35,017 nucleotides of DNA from Coriobacteriia bacterium (GTDB taxonomy: Bacteria; Actinomycetota; Coriobacteriia; Anaerosomatales; Anaerosomataceae): NCBI GenBank assembly GCA_016926975.1, contig JAFGNP010000060.1:1-35017 (forward strand), given 5' to 3'. A program made the translations under genes and the position numbers. How positions within the stretch are numbered: the stretch's first letter is position 1; each line of letters starts with the position of its first letter. Positions 987 to 8,484 of the stretch are shown here, one piece after another. Under the pieces are notes generated by a model. The model saw nothing but the letters and a program-made list of their open reading frames with translations. It was not told where the DNA came from and did no database searches.

Positions 987-1016
987 TTGACACCTCGCCC
1001 CTAACCCCCGTATCGT
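987..1016 (+). promoter_or_regulatory. Sigma70/SigA-like promoter upstream of the T-box leader
   Basis: TTGACA (987-992), 18-bp spacer, TATCGT (1011-1016), just upstream of the T-box leader. Confidence 0.6.
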
Positions 1017-1022
1017 CGTGCA

Positions 1023-1356
1023 GAACTTCACAGTCGCCTGTGATGGGGATGAGTACGCGCACTCGAGTAGGGCAACAGAGAGCCGGGGCAGCTGAGAGCC
1101 GGCGCCTGAAAGAACGCGGAACATGGCCCCGGAGGCATCCGGAGGAAACGCGCGAGCGGAGTAATACCGGACGGCAGCCCCCGTTACCTTAGGCTTGAGA
1201 GCATCGGACTTCCCGGCGAAGAACTCCCGCCCGTCGGATCCACCACCGTCCCGTGCTCGAGATGAGGCCACGAACTCGTGGTGAAGTCGGGTGGTACCGC
1301 GAAGGACGTTCAGCGCCTTTCGCCCTGGCGAACAAGTCCGGGCGGGAGGTGTTTTT
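1023..1356 (+). ncRNA. T-box leader (tRNA-sensing riboswitch), transcriptional type, likely Met specifier
   Basis: T-box GGGTGGTACCGCG at 1289-1301; Stem I-like GAGAGCC...GAGAGCC...GGAACATGG with candidate specifier ATG at 1123-1125; Stem III-like CCGGACGGC...CCGTTA; antiterminator pairing GCGAAGG (1299-1305) with CCTTTCGC (1316-1323); competing terminator; methionine biosynthesis genes downstream. The 5' end is approximate. Confidence 0.92.
1315..1356 (+). terminator. Intrinsic terminator of the T-box leader
   Basis: GCCTTTCGCCC (1315-1325) pairs with GGGCGGGAGGT (1340-1350), 11 bp including G-U pairs, followed by GTTTTT. The 5' arm is shared with the antiterminator. Confidence 0.85.
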
Positions 1357-1374
1357 CATGTTCGGAGGTAGCAC

Positions 1375-2547
1375 ATGGCGAAAAGTTGGGAAGAGATCAA
1401 CGCCCGCATCGCTAGCGGCGAAGCGGTGGTGTTCACCGCCGAGGAGTTCGCCTTGCTCGCTGCAGATGAGGGCGTGAGTGAGGCCGCGAGGCGCGTGGAT
1501 GTCGTGACGACCGGCACCTTCGGCCCGATGTGCTCCTCGGGTGTGGTGCTTAACTTCGGGCACTCCGATCCTCCGATACGCATGGCCGAGATCTGGCTGA
1601 ACGACGTAGCCGCTTACGGCGGACTTGCCGCGGTGGACACCTACCTGGGTGTGACGCAGCCGAGCAGGTCGCGGGGCATCGAATACGGCGGGGCCCACGT
1701 CATCGAGGATCTTCTGAGGGGCCGAGCGGTGCGTCTTCGGGCTACCAGCCAGGGGACCGACTGCTATCCGCGGACAGAGATCGACACCTGGGTGACGCTC
1801 GAAGACCTGAATCAGGCGTACTTCTTCAATCCGCGTAATGCCTACCAGAACTACTCGGTGGCGGTGAACTCGACAGACCGGGCGCTGCACACCTACCTCG
1901 GCACGTTGCTGCCTCGTTTCGGCAACGCCACATACTGCTCGGCCGGCGCGCTCTCGCCGCTGCTCAACGATCCGACGTACCGCACCGTCGGTGTCGGGTC
2001 GCGCATCTTCGTGGCCGGTGCGCCCGGCTACGTGGCGTGGGAGGGCACCCAGCACAATCCCAACACGAACCGCGACGAGAACGGCGTGCCGGTGAGCGGG
2101 GCCGGGACGCTTGCCGTGATAGCAGATCTGAAGAAGGCGAGTCCCGAGTACTTCTCGGCGGCCACCTTCACGGGGTACGGGGTGTCGAGCTTCGTCGGGA
2201 TCGGTGTGCCGATACCCGTCCTCGATGAGGACATCGCCGCCACACTGGCGCTTACAGACGCCGACTTGACGGCCACGGTGTACGACTACGGTGTCCAGCA
2301 CCGGTCGAAACCGGCGCTCGGTCAGGTGACTTACGCGGAGTTGCGCAGTGGCTCGATCGAGCTGGATGGCAAGACCGTTCCGACAGGCCCGGTCTCATCA
2401 CTGCCGCTTGCGCGGAGTATCGCGGCCGAACTGAAGCGTTGGATCGCCGAGGAGCGCTTCGAGCTCACGCAGCCGGTGCAGCTGCTTCCACAGATAGGGA
2501 GCCAGAGCGTCGGGCCGCTGGAGATCAAGACGGGGGAGGCGATATAG
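1375..2547 (+). CDS. Homocysteine biosynthesis protein, COG1900/DUF39 family (aspartate-semialdehyde sulfurtransferase component)
   Basis: 390 aa, MAKSWEEINARIASGEAVVFTAEEFALLAADEG..., SD ggagg upstream; followed by a NIL-ferredoxin gene as in the Methanosarcina MA1821-MA1822 pair. Confidence 0.85.
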   Translation: MAKSWEEINARIASGEAVVFTAEEFALLAADEGVSEAARRVDVVTTGTFGPMCSSGVVLNFGHSDPPIRMAEIWLNDVAAYGGLAAVDTYLGVTQPSRSRGIEYGGAHVIEDLLRGRAVRLRATSQGTDCYPRTEIDTWVTLEDLNQAYFFNPRNAYQNYSVAVNSTDRALHTYLGTLLPRFGNATYCSAGALSPLLNDPTYRTVGVGSRIFVAGAPGYVAWEGTQHNPNTNRDENGVPVSGAGTLAVIADLKKASPEYFSAATFTGYGVSSFVGIGVPIPVLDEDIAATLALTDADLTATVYDYGVQHRSKPALGQVTYAELRSGSIELDGKTVPTGPVSSLPLARSIAAELKRWIAEERFELTQPVQLLPQIGSQSVGPLEIKTGEAI

Positions 2548-2955
2548 ATGGCGCGCAAGAGACTGGATCTCGTCTTCCCGCCGCAGCTGTCTTTGAAGCC
2601 GATCATCTACCACCTCGTCAAGGACTACGATCTGGTGCCGAACATCCTGCGCGCGCAGATCCATCCGGCGCAGGAGGGCCGGATGGTGCTGGAGGTCACG
2701 GGTGCGAAGGAGAGCTACGACGCCGGTGTCGCCTTCCTGGAAGCTCAAGGCCTTACGGTCAGTGAAGCGGCCAGTGACATCGTGTTGGACGAGGAGCGCT
2801 GCGTGAACTGCGGGTTGTGTACGGCTGTCTGCAGGCCCGGCGCGCTGGCTCTCGACCGAAAGACTCAGACTCTGACGTTTGACAAGGACAAGTGCGTGTA
2901 CTGCGAGGCGTGCGTGATCGCCTGCCCCCGCCGCGCGATCACGCTGAGCTTCTGA
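2548..2955 (+). CDS. NIL domain plus 2x[4Fe-4S] ferredoxin (MA1822-like partner)
   Basis: N-terminal NIL-like region, then CVNCGLCTAVCRPGAL and CVYCEACVIACPRRAI. Confidence 0.88.
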   Translation: MARKRLDLVFPPQLSLKPIIYHLVKDYDLVPNILRAQIHPAQEGRMVLEVTGAKESYDAGVAFLEAQGLTVSEAASDIVLDEERCVNCGLCTAVCRPGALALDRKTQTLTFDKDKCVYCEACVIACPRRAITLSF

Positions 2956-2973
2956 GGCTTGAGGAGGCGACCG

Positions 2974-5382
2974 ATGCCTGACATAGCATTGCGGCTCGGC
3001 CGCGACATACTGGTCCTCGACGGCGCCATGGGTACGATGCTCCAACGCCACGACCTGCCCGCCGAACAGTCGCTCGTCCAGCTCAACGTCACCGCGCCCG
3101 AGCTGGTCGAGGAGGTGCACCGCCTGTATCACCTGGCGGGCGCCGACTGCGCGACCACCAACTCCTTCGGCGGGACTCGCCACAAGCTCGATGCGTACGG
3201 GCTAGGCGATCAGCTGGTTGAGCTCAATCGCGCTGCGGTGCGCGTTGCGCGAGCGGGTGGGGCACCGCACATCCTTGCCGAAATGGGGCCTAGTGGGCTC
3301 GTGCTCGAGCCCCTGGGTACCGCCGCGTTCGAGCACGTCTTCGACTTCTTCGCCGAGCAAGCGTCCGCGCTCGCGGCGGAGGGTCCGGATGCCATCAACA
3401 TCGCCACGATGACCGACATAGCCGAGGCGCGCTGCGCGGTTCTCGCGGCACGCTCGGTCACGGACTTGCCGGTCTTCGTTACCTGCACCTTCGGGTTGAA
3501 CGGTCGGATGGACCTCTCGGGGACCGACCCGGAGACAGCCGCAGTGGTCCTGGAAGCTGCAGGCGCCTCGGTCGTCGGGATGAACTGCGGGCTCGGACCG
3601 GAGCAGATGCTGCCGCTGGTGGAGCGTATGGCCCTTGCCACGGAGCTGCCGATCATAGTGCGTCCGAACGCGGGGCTGCCGAGGCTGGTGGACGGGAAGA
3701 CGGTGTTCCCGGGTACTGCCCTCGAGATGGGCGAATACGCTTCGCGCTTCGTGGACGCGGGGGCCGCGCTGGTCGGTTCGTGCTGCGGTTCCACGCCGGA
3801 GTTCACCGGTGCGATCGCGGATGCTGTGGCGGGGCGAGAGCCTGCGCCGCGCAGTACGGCTCCCGCCGGCGTGACGCTCGCCGGGCCGCGTGGTCTGGTG
3901 CGCATCGGCGCGGGGAAGCCGCTGGCAACAGTCGGCGAGCGGATCAACCCCACCGGCAAAAAGCGGCTGGCGGAGAGTCTGCGTGCGAGCACTCTCGACG
4001 TGGTGCGCGCGTACGCTGTCGAGCAGCAGGATGCCGGAGCCGACCTTCTTGACGTGAACGTGGGCGCTGCCGGAGTATCGCAGGCTGACTTGCTGCCAAG
4101 AGCGGTGCTGGCGCTGTCGGGTCTTGTGGATCTACCGCTCTCCATCGACACGACTGATCATGAGGCATTGGAGGCGGCGCTAAGGATCTATCCGGGGCGC
4201 GCGCTCATCAACAGCGTCAGCGGAGAGAAGTCCTCGCTCGAAGCGGTGCTGCCCTTGGCGGTTCGATACGGCGCGGCCGTGGTCGTGCTTGCACTGGACG
4301 ACGACGGCATACCTCACAGCGCGGATGCCAGGGTGGAAGTTGTGCACAGGGTGCGGGCGGCTGCGCACGCCGCCGGGCTGGACGACGGCGATCTCCTCGT
4401 GGACGCGCTGGTCCTGGCGGCCGCCACAGAAGACGGCGGAGCCTCCGCAACACTTGAGGCCATTCACACCGTAAGCGCCGATCTGGGGCTTGCTACTATC
4501 GCGGGCGTCAGCAACGTCAGCCACGGCCTCCCGGGTAGACCTGAACTCAACGCGCAGTTTCTCAAGATGGCCGTCCAAGCGGGCTTGACCGCCGCGATCG
4601 TCAATCCCTCTGAACACCTTGAGCTCGATTCGGCTACCGCCGCCGCTGCGGCCGACGTGCTGCTGGGGCGCGATGTCCATGCGGAGCGCTGGATTGCCAG
4701 GGTGGCCGTGTCCCAGGGTGCGGTCGAGGCCAGCGAGCCCTCCGTCGGCAGTACTACGGCCGAGCGGCTGGCGCTGGCGGTCGAGCGCGGCGACGCAGAC
4801 TCGGCGCCGGCGCTGGTCGAAGAGCTGCTGAGAGGCGGCGCTGATCCCCAGTCGGTGATTGCCGACGTACTCACGCCGGCGATCCAGCGTCTTGGCGATG
4901 CGTACGGGCGCGGGGACGCCTTCCTGCCGCAGCTGATCGCTGCAGCGGACGCGATGAGGACGGCGGTGGAGCGTGCGAAGTCGCATCTGCCGGAGGGTTC
5001 TGACGACCACGAGGGCTGCGTCGTGTTCGGCACGGTCAAGGGCGATATCCACTCCATCGGCAAGGACATATGCGTGAGTATGCTGGAGAGCCAGGGCTAT
5101 CTTGTGGACGACCTCGGCGTGGACGTGTCCGCAGAGGCTTTCGCCGAAGCGGCAGCGACAGCCGACGCAGTGTGTCTCTCGGCACTCATGACGACCACGC
5201 TCGCCAACATGGAGAAGGCGGTGTCGGCCGTGCGCGAAGTGGCCGAGGTGCCGGTGTTCGTGGGCGGTGCGGTAGTGACGCGCGATTTCGCCGATGGGCT
5301 GGGTGCGGGTTATTCTGAAGACGCACCCGGCTGCGTGCGCGCGGTCCGTAGTGCCTTGAGCGCACCCAAGGGGAACGCATGA
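2974..5382 (+). CDS. metH: Cobalamin-dependent methionine synthase (Hcy, pterin-binding and B12-binding domains; no reactivation domain)
   Basis: ILVLDGAMGTMLQ; VGSCCGSTPEF zinc-type Hcy motif; GERINPTGKKRLAE pterin domain; GDIHSIGKDI B12 DxHxxG motif. ATG at 2974 follows GGAGG; the listed ORF start at 2959 is a TTG overlapping the SD. Confidence 0.92.
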   Translation: MPDIALRLGRDILVLDGAMGTMLQRHDLPAEQSLVQLNVTAPELVEEVHRLYHLAGADCATTNSFGGTRHKLDAYGLGDQLVELNRAAVRVARAGGAPHILAEMGPSGLVLEPLGTAAFEHVFDFFAEQASALAAEGPDAINIATMTDIAEARCAVLAARSVTDLPVFVTCTFGLNGRMDLSGTDPETAAVVLEAAGASVVGMNCGLGPEQMLPLVERMALATELPIIVRPNAGLPRLVDGKTVFPGTALEMGEYASRFVDAGAALVGSCCGSTPEFTGAIADAVAGREPAPRSTAPAGVTLAGPRGLVRIGAGKPLATVGERINPTGKKRLAESLRASTLDVVRAYAVEQQDAGADLLDVNVGAAGVSQADLLPRAVLALSGLVDLPLSIDTTDHEALEAALRIYPGRALINSVSGEKSSLEAVLPLAVRYGAAVVVLALDDDGIPHSADARVEVVHRVRAAAHAAGLDDGDLLVDALVLAAATEDGGASATLEAIHTVSADLGLATIAGVSNVSHGLPGRPELNAQFLKMAVQAGLTAAIVNPSEHLELDSATAAAAADVLLGRDVHAERWIARVAVSQGAVEASEPSVGSTTAERLALAVERGDADSAPALVEELLRGGADPQSVIADVLTPAIQRLGDAYGRGDAFLPQLIAAADAMRTAVERAKSHLPEGSDDHEGCVVFGTVKGDIHSIGKDICVSMLESQGYLVDDLGVDVSAEAFAEAAATADAVCLSALMTTTLANMEKAVSAVREVAEVPVFVGGAVVTRDFADGLGAGYSEDAPGCVRAVRSALSAPKGNA

Positions 5383-6041
5383 TAATCACGAAGCCGCGCG
5401 AGTGGGCGCGCATACAAGAGAATCTGGCAGGGATCGGCGCCAGGCGTGTGTTCCTGATCGGCTGCGGACAGTGCGCGACGGTTGCGCACACGGGTGGAGA
5501 GAAGGAAGTCGCGGAAATGGCCGTGCGCCTGGAGACCGAGGGTGTGGAGGTCACCGGTTGGACGGTAGCCGAAGTCACCTGCCATCTGAACGGCACCAAG
5601 CTCGAGTGCCGCAAGCACCAGGAGGCTATCGACGCCGCGGACGCCGTTGTCGTGCTGGCGTGCGGCGCCGGCGTGCAGACGGTGGCCGACTCGATCCCGA
5701 AGCCGGTCTTTCCCGGACTGGAGTCTCTCTTCCTCGGCACGGTCATCAGAAACGGCATCTTCGAAGAGCGGTGCCAGACGTGCGGCGACTGCGTTCTCGA
5801 CAAGACGGCGGGCATCTGCCCGGTCACGACCTGCCCGAAGGGGCTGCTGAACGGTCCGTGCGGAGGCATGTGGAACGGCATGTGTGAGGTGCTCACTGAT
5901 CGAGAATGCACGCACGTGCGCATACGCAGACGCTTGGATGAGCAGAACCGTGCCGGCAAAGGCACGCTTGCTCCAAAGGACTTCAGCACCGCCCTGAAAC
6001 CCGGCGGCGTCAACATCCGCGGACAGGGAGGTGGCCGATGA
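5379..6041 (+). CDS. metV: MetV-like protein (methylenetetrahydrofolate reductase C-terminal-domain family)
   Basis: CGQCATVAHTGGEKEV and CPVTTCPKGLLNGPCGGMWNGMCEV; overlaps the metH stop (ATGA). Confidence 0.85.
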   Translation: MIITKPREWARIQENLAGIGARRVFLIGCGQCATVAHTGGEKEVAEMAVRLETEGVEVTGWTVAEVTCHLNGTKLECRKHQEAIDAADAVVVLACGAGVQTVADSIPKPVFPGLESLFLGTVIRNGIFEERCQTCGDCVLDKTAGICPVTTCPKGLLNGPCGGMWNGMCEVLTDRECTHVRIRRRLDEQNRAGKGTLAPKDFSTALKPGGVNIRGQGGGR

Positions 6042-6904
6042 GCCGCCTTCGCGCGCTGCTGGAGAGAGGCGAGTTCGTCGTCACGGGCGAGGTGGCCCCG
6101 CCAAGAGGCTCGGACATGGCAGGCATGCACGCCGCCGTGGACCTTCTGGCGCCGCACTGCCATGCGCTCAATGTGACCGACAACCAGGGCGCGAGCCTGC
6201 ACCTGTCGAGTCTCGCCGCTTCGAAGGCCATTCTGGATCGGGGTATCGAGCCGATCTTCCAACAGACGTGTCGCGACCGTAACCGGCTTGCGCTCCAGTC
6301 CGATTTGTTGGCGGCCTGGACGCTGGGTCTGGAGAACGTGCTGGTGGTGACCGGAGACGACCCGCGCGCCGGCGACCATCCGAACGCCAAGGGTGTGTTC
6401 GACCTGGACTCGACGCAGCTGGCGCAGATCGCGAGTGCCATGAACGAGGGGCATGACATGATGGGCCGCGAGCTCATGGGCGGCACAGGCTTCTTCATCG
6501 GAGCGGCCATGTTCCCCGAGGCCGAGCCCTGGGATGTGCAACTCGCGCGGGTAGAGCAGAAGATGGAGGCGGGCGTCCGCTTCTTCCAGACCCAGGCGGT
6601 CTTCGACATCGCCAAGCTGGAGCGTGCCGTGGAGGCGCTCCGTCCTCTTGGAGCGAAGATAATCGCCGGCGTCCTGGTGTTGAGGAGTCCTCGTGTCATC
6701 GAGTTCGTCAACGGGCATCTGGCGGGACTGATGGTGCCCGACGCCATAGCCGACCGGATCCGGGATGCGCAGGACCCCGCCGAGGAGGCGGTCCGGCTTG
6801 CCGCCGAGCAGGTCAAGGCGATCCGCGACATCGCAGACGGCGTGCACGTGATGCCGCTGGGGCTGGACAGCGCCATCGGCCGCATCCTGGGCGAGCCGGA
6901 GTAG
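6038..6904 (+). CDS. metF: 5,10-methylenetetrahydrofolate reductase
   Basis: FVVTGEVAPPRGSD, LNVTDNQGA, VLVVTGDDPRAGDHPNAKGVFDLDS, FFQTQAVFD; overlaps metV by ATGA. Confidence 0.92.
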   Translation: MSRLRALLERGEFVVTGEVAPPRGSDMAGMHAAVDLLAPHCHALNVTDNQGASLHLSSLAASKAILDRGIEPIFQQTCRDRNRLALQSDLLAAWTLGLENVLVVTGDDPRAGDHPNAKGVFDLDSTQLAQIASAMNEGHDMMGRELMGGTGFFIGAAMFPEAEPWDVQLARVEQKMEAGVRFFQTQAVFDIAKLERAVEALRPLGAKIIAGVLVLRSPRVIEFVNGHLAGLMVPDAIADRIRDAQDPAEEAVRLAAEQVKAIRDIADGVHVMPLGLDSAIGRILGEPE

Positions 6905-6909
6905 TCCGC

Positions 6910-8484
6910 ATGCGCCGCATCGCAATCTACAGCGATGTGCACGGCAACGTTTCCGCGATGGAGGCCGTTGCAGCTTCCATGGAGGCCGAGGGGTTGTCAG
7001 AGCGCTACTGCCTGGGCGACCTGGTAGGCCTCGGACCGCGTCCTGACGAAGCAGTCGCGCTGGTGCGCTCTTACGGCGACAAGGTTATTCAGGGCAACTA
7101 CGACAGGGCGATCGGGGCTCATCTGTGCAGTCCGGGCAGCGAGTTCCCTACAACGCAAGAGGCGCTCGACGGTGCGGAGTCATACGCGTACACGATCGCC
7201 GAGACGAGTCGTGAAGCCGCGGACTACCTGTTCGTCCTTCCTCGCGACCTTCGTCTCGAGGAGGGCGGGGCGAGCATCCTTCTGTGCCACGGGACTCCTC
7301 GGCTCATCAGCGGGCTTTTGGGTCCGGACACCGCGGGTCCGCATCTGGTGTCACTCGCACGGGCCGCAGAGGCTGACGTCGTGTGTTGCGGTCACCTACA
7401 CGTGCCTTTCCACCGCTCCATTCCAACAGAGGCTGGCGTGGTGCACTGGGTGAACGTCGGCTCGGTCGGTCGTCCGCGCGACGGAGATCCCCGCGCGGCC
7501 TGGGTCGAGCTGGTCATCGGCACCCAGGGCGAGGTGGTCGAGCACGCTCCTGCGGACACTGCATGCAGGCGGATCGCAGACCTGGATCTCTGGCTCGGCG
7601 TGACGGTGCATCGTGTCGCTTACAACATCGACGCTGTCGTGCGTGAGATGACGCAAAAGGGACTCCCTGCGACGCTTGCCCACGGGTTGAAGCTGGGCCT
7701 GGAAGAGCACGACGTGGCAGCGGACGGCTCGATCCAGGTGGTCGACGTCGGCGCCTTGGAGAATGAGATCGCGGAGCCGGTCGGAACGGCTCTCACATTC
7801 GCCGAGTCCACAACGCCCTGCACGTGCTTCATGGAGGACCGTATCGCTGCGTACGAGGCGCTTGTGCGGATACTCCGAGGTGAGATCTCCGAGGTGTCGA
7901 TCGCGGTGCGTCGACTTCGCATAGCGATGCGCAGCTGTCGGGTGCACCTGCACGTGGACGAGGCGGCGATCGTGGCTTCGTTCGAGGCCGCCGATCGCGC
8001 GCTGCTCACTGCGGCAGGTCGGGCGGCCTTCGAAGAGGAGCGGGACCGACTCTACGGGTTGAGGACCGGCTTCGACCCATTCGCGAACGTGCTGTCGCCC
8101 GACGAGGTCACTTACCTGTCCGGCGAGGTCGAGGAGCATCGTGAGGCGCTGGAGAGGATGTACCGCGAGGCGGCGTTCACAGTACCGATCCTTCCAGGGT
8201 CCTTGCGCAGCTCGGGTCACATCGCGACAGAGCTTGCGTTCCTGGCACACTGCTTGCGTGGAGCCGAGGCAGGCGTCACGCAAGCGCCGGAGCGCGCACA
8301 GGAGTTCTTCGCGCAGCACCTGTCGGAATGGGGTGTGCTCTTCGCGGTTGTCGTTGGTCAGCAGACTTCCGAGCCGGTCATGCGCTATGCGGGGCTTGCT
8401 CTCGATAAGTTCCTGGCCTGCGAAGCGGGCATCTTCAGGCATGCGTTCTCGGAGATGTGCAGCTTCCGGATCCGGAGGGGGTGA
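6910..8484 (+). CDS. Metallophosphoesterase fused to a TorD/DmsD-like chaperone domain
   Basis: N-terminus IYSDVHGN, CLGDLVGLGPRPDE, QGNYDRA, LCHGTPR, CGHLHVPF (calcineurin-like metallophosphoesterase). C-terminus from ~7831 resembles the TorD fold: LPGSLRSSGHIATELAFLAHC...FFAQHLSEWGVLFAVVV. Confidence 0.75.
   Translation: MRRIAIYSDVHGNVSAMEAVAASMEAEGLSERYCLGDLVGLGPRPDEAVALVRSYGDKVIQGNYDRAIGAHLCSPGSEFPTTQEALDGAESYAYTIAETSREAADYLFVLPRDLRLEEGGASILLCHGTPRLISGLLGPDTAGPHLVSLARAAEADVVCCGHLHVPFHRSIPTEAGVVHWVNVGSVGRPRDGDPRAAWVELVIGTQGEVVEHAPADTACRRIADLDLWLGVTVHRVAYNIDAVVREMTQKGLPATLAHGLKLGLEEHDVAADGSIQVVDVGALENEIAEPVGTALTFAESTTPCTCFMEDRIAAYEALVRILRGEISEVSIAVRRLRIAMRSCRVHLHVDEAAIVASFEAADRALLTAAGRAAFEEERDRLYGLRTGFDPFANVLSPDEVTYLSGEVEEHREALERMYREAAFTVPILPGSLRSSGHIATELAFLAHCLRGAEAGVTQAPERAQEFFAQHLSEWGVLFAVVVGQQTSEPVMRYAGLALDKFLACEAGIFRHAFSEMCSFRIRRG

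Follow-up and report, generated by a model that had tools for sequence, protein, structure and literature searches.

Results

The locus and its leader

Near the start of the window, by which we mean the whole 35,017-nucleotide stretch of DNA that was analysed, a structured leader lies directly upstream of genes encoding HcyBio, a NIL-ferredoxin protein, MetH, MetV and MetF (Table 1), whose homocysteine and methionine synthesis pathway has been described previously (PMC5764234). In the MetH-like protein the C-terminal activation domain is missing, and MetV and MetF come next; the following gene (6910-8484) encodes a metallophosphoesterase domain fused to a weak nitrate-reductase-delta-like region. 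The position of a promoter-like site fits the transcript start expected near 1023.

Table 1. Elements of the leader and genes of the operon, in window coordinates
Feature	Position	Strand	Basis
Promoter-like TTGACA-18-TATCGT	987-1016	+	Predicted; consensus scan, 10/12 matches, 0.1 expected by shuffling
Stem I: K-turn region, AGUA/GAAC specifier loop, distal AGAGAG/loop elements	1036-1136	+	RF00230 alignment
Specifier triplet AUG (Met), in the loop AUGAGUA / GAAC-AUG-G	1123-1125	+	RF00230 alignment, same-lineage controls, invariant in 41/41
Stem II with S-turn (AGGAAA / GAGUAAUA)	1138-1171	+	Comparative
Stem IIA/B pseudoknot, CGG/CCG, loop AGCC pairing with GGCU	1172-1195	+	Comparative
Extra helical domain X: GAGCAU/GUGCUC, GGAC/GUCC, inner hairpin	1199-1258	+	Comparative; RF00230 insertion
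Domain X loop CUCCCGCCC	1224-1232	+	Perfect 9-nt complement of terminator 3' arm, 1340-1348
Domain X ACCACC	1242-1247	+	Complementary to GGUGGU, 1290-1295 (T-box bulge)
Stem III	1268-1281	+	Pairing with compensatory changes; alignment ragged
Antiterminator: A1 GUCGGG/CCUGGC, bulge UGGUACC (1292-1298), A2 GCGAA/UUCGC	1286-1329	+	Comparative; -16.5 kcal/mol predicted
Intrinsic terminator, 12-bp stem (1314-1351), then UUUUU (1352-1356)	1314-1356	+	Comparative; -27.7 kcal/mol predicted
Shine-Dalgarno GGAGGU, beyond the terminator stem	1364-1369	+	Sequence
HcyBio start codon	1375	+	Sequence
HcyBio (COG1900/DUF39), homocysteine biosynthesis protein	1375-2547	+	PF01837, E 1.8e-145
NIL domain-ferredoxin protein	2548-2955	+	PF09383, E 1.9e-15; Fer4, E 1.7e-14
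MetH-type cobalamin methionine synthase without activation domain	2959-5382	+	PF02574, PF00809, PF02310, PF02607
MetV-like (DUF5981)	5379-6041	+	PF12225, E 6.8e-29
MetF, methylenetetrahydrofolate reductase	6038-6904	+	PF02219, E 1e-31

The T-box covariance model RF00230 aligned to the leader over its full length (model positions 1-219 of 219 to 1031-1330) with 77.4 bits and an E-value of 4.7e-17 in an Rfam scan run at an E-value threshold, though this score lies below the RF00230 gathering score of 93, and a scan of the window at gathering thresholds gave no hit. Among the hcy T-boxes listed in relatives, none scores above 93 bits, and other T-boxes in the same genomes do; our guess is that the low score stems from an insertion of 60-70 bases, here termed domain X, together with high GC content. 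Minimum-free-energy folding of the region was uninformative (z = 0.19, no better than shuffled sequence), and the assignment is based instead on the covariance model and on comparative data.

An earlier, sequence-only reading of this DNA had proposed a T-box, and had pointed to a T-box core, to a Stem I-like segment with ATG as the specifier, and to a segment shared by mutually exclusive antiterminator and terminator hairpins. All of these are present: GGGTGGTACCGCG is found at 1289-1301, GGAACATGG carries ATG at 1123-1125, and CCTTTCGCCC (1316-1325) is common to the antiterminator (1286-1329) and the terminator stem (1314-1351). The match to RF00230 that it had anticipated was likewise found, below the gathering score but with the E-value given above. 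The two hairpins compete for CCUUUCGCCC, both are conserved, and the second ends in a U-run, as in transcriptional (class I) T-boxes. The hairpin at 1314-1356, the stem mismatch and loop of which fall outside the pattern of a generic terminator scanner, was missed by that program.

Conservation and covariation across the Anaerosomatales

Close relatives that carry names, among them Anaerosomatales bacterium Yes46-06 and several Coriobacteriia MAGs, place the window in the Anaerosomatales (Coriobacteriia, Actinomycetota), an order with cultured isolates (PMC9686372). The HcyBio gene is present in 47 of 69 Anaerosomatales genomes, and a T-box precedes it in 42 of the 45 cases for which upstream sequence is available. 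The motif GAACATGGCC occurs in every leader whose Stem I/specifier region is on the contig (41/41). The presence of the same leader before the orthologous gene in these genomes, together with the invariance of this motif, places the RF00230 match far beyond chance. Across 301 Coriobacteriia genomes, one weak partial match fell outside the order, and no other did.

When 30 leaders were aligned, 92.6% of the cells of the T-box fold were paired, compared with 36-46% when the partners were slid by 1-3 columns, and 20 pairs had changed on both sides, compared with 8.8 in shuffles. Stem I helices 1-5 are paired and covary, with the mid-stem helix 4 partly misaligned. The structures that follow, the Stem II S-turn and the stem IIA/B pseudoknot, are also supported by covariation: the upper stem of Stem II shows compensatory C-G to G-C (or G-U) changes in 10 sequences, and the conserved inner pairs of IIB show C-G to G-C changes in three, the outermost A-U pair being unsupported. 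Compensatory changes are seen in both alternative structures. Antiterminator helix A1 (GUCGGG/CCUGRC) is paired in all 30 leaders, its sole variation being U-A/U-G, and in A2 the inner three pairs are kept, with G-C to A-U in two leaders. Pairing in the terminator stem reaches 95.8%, compensatory change is seen in 11 cells, and a T-rich tail follows the stem in all but one (G057) of 42 leaders.

The G057 leader (L192) has kept the T-box and an AUG-bearing Stem I, but Stem II, pseudoknot and domain X are all missing and its hairpin is not followed by a T-run; it may be a T-box in decay or one that acts in a different way. In G066 (L195/L093) the leader is reduced to a remnant, and in G056 and G042 (L189, L194), both genomes of family f2, no leader was found, the gene being immediately preceded by a Nudix-like coding sequence. 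G066, G056 and G042 represent apparent losses of the T-box, and these cases, with the reduced leader of G057, indicate that the leader is dispensable in some lineages.

The specifier and its cognate tRNA

The position of the specifier was calibrated on T-boxes with known targets in the same genome and its relatives, in which the triplet that precedes a purine and the Stem I CC strand matches the downstream gene: AUC for ileS, UUC for pheS, UGG for trpE, and CUC or CUG for ilvD, the ileS and pheS identities having been checked and trpE and ilvD having been named from N-terminal sequences rather than by family search. At this position HcyBio leaders give AUG, in a Stem I loop of the form GAAC-AUG-G, so that, as the sequence-only reading had supposed, AUG sits opposite the anticodon. 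An AUG specifier is thus joined to methionine-related target genes.

Three tRNAs with a CAU anticodon are encoded in the genome, two of them elongator-like and one an initiator; all end in A73-CCA, so that the ACCA ends complement the UGGU of the antiterminator bulge (1292-1295), a complementarity that the sequence-only reading had suggested looking for. Two of the three have identical acceptor stems. The initiator tRNA-Met gene (L026:1501-1577) has U1 opposite G72 instead of the usual C1-A72 mismatch, and three other genomes of the family carry an identical copy of this 77-base gene. Attenuation through tRNA-Met, as first proposed, is supported, with the refinement that AUG and UGGU would fit initiator and elongator tRNA-Met alike and cannot separate them. 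The met T-box of Staphylococcus aureus prefers the initiator tRNA for reasons other than the specifier, and a change of specifier did not abolish initiator binding (PMC3771891). That result suggests that specificity in the Anaerosomatales leader may not rest on AUG alone.

An additional conserved helical domain

Domain X, which is absent from the RF00230 model, lies between the IIA/B pseudoknot and Stem III. In 27 sequences 95.6% of its cells are paired, and five pairs have changed on both sides. The stem of its inner hairpin is variable and the loop, UCCCGCC, is conserved: CC[CU]GCC or CCCACC is found in 34 of the 37 leaders that have the domain, and CCACCG is kept in 31 of the 37. The domain is absent in G052, G044 and G067. 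The trpE T-boxes (UGG) of relatives, for example L151, L152 and L159, have an insertion of their own, of a different kind, between the pseudoknot and Stem III, and the ilvD T-boxes (Leu codons) of the lineage have none there.

Two complementarities (Table 1) point to what the domain may do. In many genomes, though not in every one, the duplex between loop and terminator arm had a better energy than those from dinucleotide-shuffled versions of the leader concerned (p between 0 and approximately 0.5), a comparison in which the loop is one conserved motif and the genomes are not independent. Two leaders have candidate compensatory changes in loop and arm (G053, CCCCACC/GGUGGGG; G038, CCCCGCC/GGCGGGG), and the match is weak or missing in G029, G048, G061 and G034. 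It is conceivable, though we regard it as rather unlikely, that domain X is an accessory switch whose loop CUCCCGCCC captures the terminator 3' arm GGGCGGGAG, whose ACCACC mimics the tRNA acceptor end on GGUGGU, or both; if so, the domain would adjust how terminator and antiterminator are balanced in a leader rich in GC. We know of no such arrangement in any described T-box, and the extra conserved helix is the most novel point of the leader.

SAM-I riboswitches at the equivalent position

No match to the SAM-I riboswitch (RF00162) was found in the window, the region upstream of HcyBio included, at gathering thresholds. Elsewhere, among 30 scanned HcyBio loci without a recognisable T-box core, a SAM-I riboswitch lies directly upstream of HcyBio in 15, mostly in Firmicutes and once in Nitrospirae; the choice of loci was partly guided by an AGAGAG motif, and 15/30 is not an unbiased frequency. 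None of the 30 has an Rfam T-box match at the gathering threshold. The same place on the same operon is therefore occupied by SAM-I in Firmicutes and one Nitrospirae and by a T-box in Anaerosomatales.

The Anaerosomatales have SAM-I elements at another location. A single match occurs in 38 of 41 genomes; the match at G000:C61:22676-22781 (minus strand; L179), the only one in the window's genome, scores 39.6 bits, which is below gathering, and lies approximately 120 bases upstream of metK, and some of the single sites in relatives score above the cut-off. The Anaerosomatales thus seem to retain a SAM riboswitch for metK while sensing tRNA-Met for homocysteine synthesis, separating the two signals. 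Exchange of SAM riboswitches and T-boxes is already known within Firmicutes (PMC3771891, PMC3766115), and the HcyBio operon provides an independent case in which the two occupy the same position.

Discussion

We observe at this locus the sequence elements of a T-box, their conservation and covariation, a specifier, complementarity to tRNA, and target genes. These features make it very probable that the leader is a methionine-specific, transcription-attenuating T-box riboswitch, which most likely senses uncharged tRNA-Met and halts transcription when methionine is plentiful. The nascent leader would bind tRNA(CAU) through AUG in Stem I, with distal Stem I contacting the tRNA elbow. With an uncharged tRNA, the ACCA end would pair with the UGGU bulge and hold the antiterminator (GUCGGG...GCGAA / UUCGC...CCUGGC), making CCUUUCGCCC unavailable to the terminator and allowing RNA polymerase to read into HcyBio, NIL-ferredoxin, metH, metV and metF. 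With a charged tRNA or none, the terminator, expected to be the default because its predicted energy is well below that of the antiterminator, would form and transcription would stop at about 1356. By analogy with the established T-box mechanism, we infer that the leader binds tRNA, that it acts as a switch and that methionine starvation derepresses the operon.

Translational control is the common mode of T-boxes in Actinobacteria (PMC1262725, PMC7583486), and the terminator 3' arm holds a Shine-Dalgarno-like GGGAGGU; a class II T-box of the kind found on actinobacterial ileS, in which the 3' hairpin hides the ribosome-binding site, is nonetheless improbable at this locus. The real Shine-Dalgarno sequence is unpaired and lies downstream of both the hairpin and the U-run, the T-rich tail is conserved as described above, and the long Stem I has distal elements, in contrast to the generally shorter Stem I of translational T-boxes (PMC7778990). 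That the Shine-Dalgarno sequence is free of the terminator stem argues for transcriptional rather than translational control. The register of the specifier, set by the RF00230 alignment and by T-boxes whose targets are known, and the methionine-synthesis function of the target genes make it highly improbable that the leader responds to another codon in a shifted register or to another tRNA, such as the minor tRNA-Ile with a CAU anticodon; tRNA-Ile(CAU) genes do share this anticodon, and two of the genome's three CAU tRNAs are alike in their acceptor stems, but lysidine-modified tRNA-Ile reads AUA, not AUG. The sub-gathering RF00230 score could also be taken as the mark of a degenerate or non-functional T-box fossil, an idea that is scarcely credible when functional motifs are invariant and compensatory changes extend across many families of the order.

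Earlier work had already described the T-box family, its methionine members and transcriptional examples in Actinobacteria; the lineage and the pathway are new. The description of the Anaerosomatales makes no mention of methionine, and in the open-licence literature we found no paper on a T-box in OPB41 and no earlier report of a methionine T-box in this lineage or on the HcyBio pathway. Taxid 1760 we take to be the class Actinomycetes, hence without Coriobacteriia. It was this taxid that the TBDB translational search used (PMC7778990), and the Actinobacteria studied by Seliverstov et al. yielded no RNA structures on their methionine operons (PMC1262725).

The sequence-only reading had described actinobacterial T-boxes as mostly translational and attached to ileS. 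The ileS T-boxes (PMC1262725, PMC7583486) do belong to the same family and phylum, and one is present in this genome, but they sense isoleucine tRNA and control translation; the statement needs refinement in that the his operon T-box of Corynebacterium glutamicum (PMC9413887) is a transcriptional precedent in Actinobacteria, although with histidine specificity and in a different class of Actinomycetota. The methionine T-boxes of Lactobacillales (PMC2494555, PMC3766115), which expanded where SAM riboswitches were lost, belong to another phylum and target transporters, methionine synthase and other methionine genes. The S. aureus metICFE-mdh leader (PMC3771891) resembles the Anaerosomatales leader in being a methionine T-box with an AUG specifier and an overlapping terminator on a methionine biosynthesis operon, and in standing in for the SAM (S-box) riboswitch of relatives. 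It differs in its low-GC Firmicutes host, its metICFE genes and its demonstrated initiator preference, whereas the leader described here belongs to Actinomycetota, controls the HcyBio reductive sulfur route if it acts as proposed, and contains domain X. The link between leader and operon supports a role for HcyBio and NIL-ferredoxin in methionine supply, and the range of methionine T-boxes now takes in a deep actinobacterial lineage and a route whose regulation is little described.
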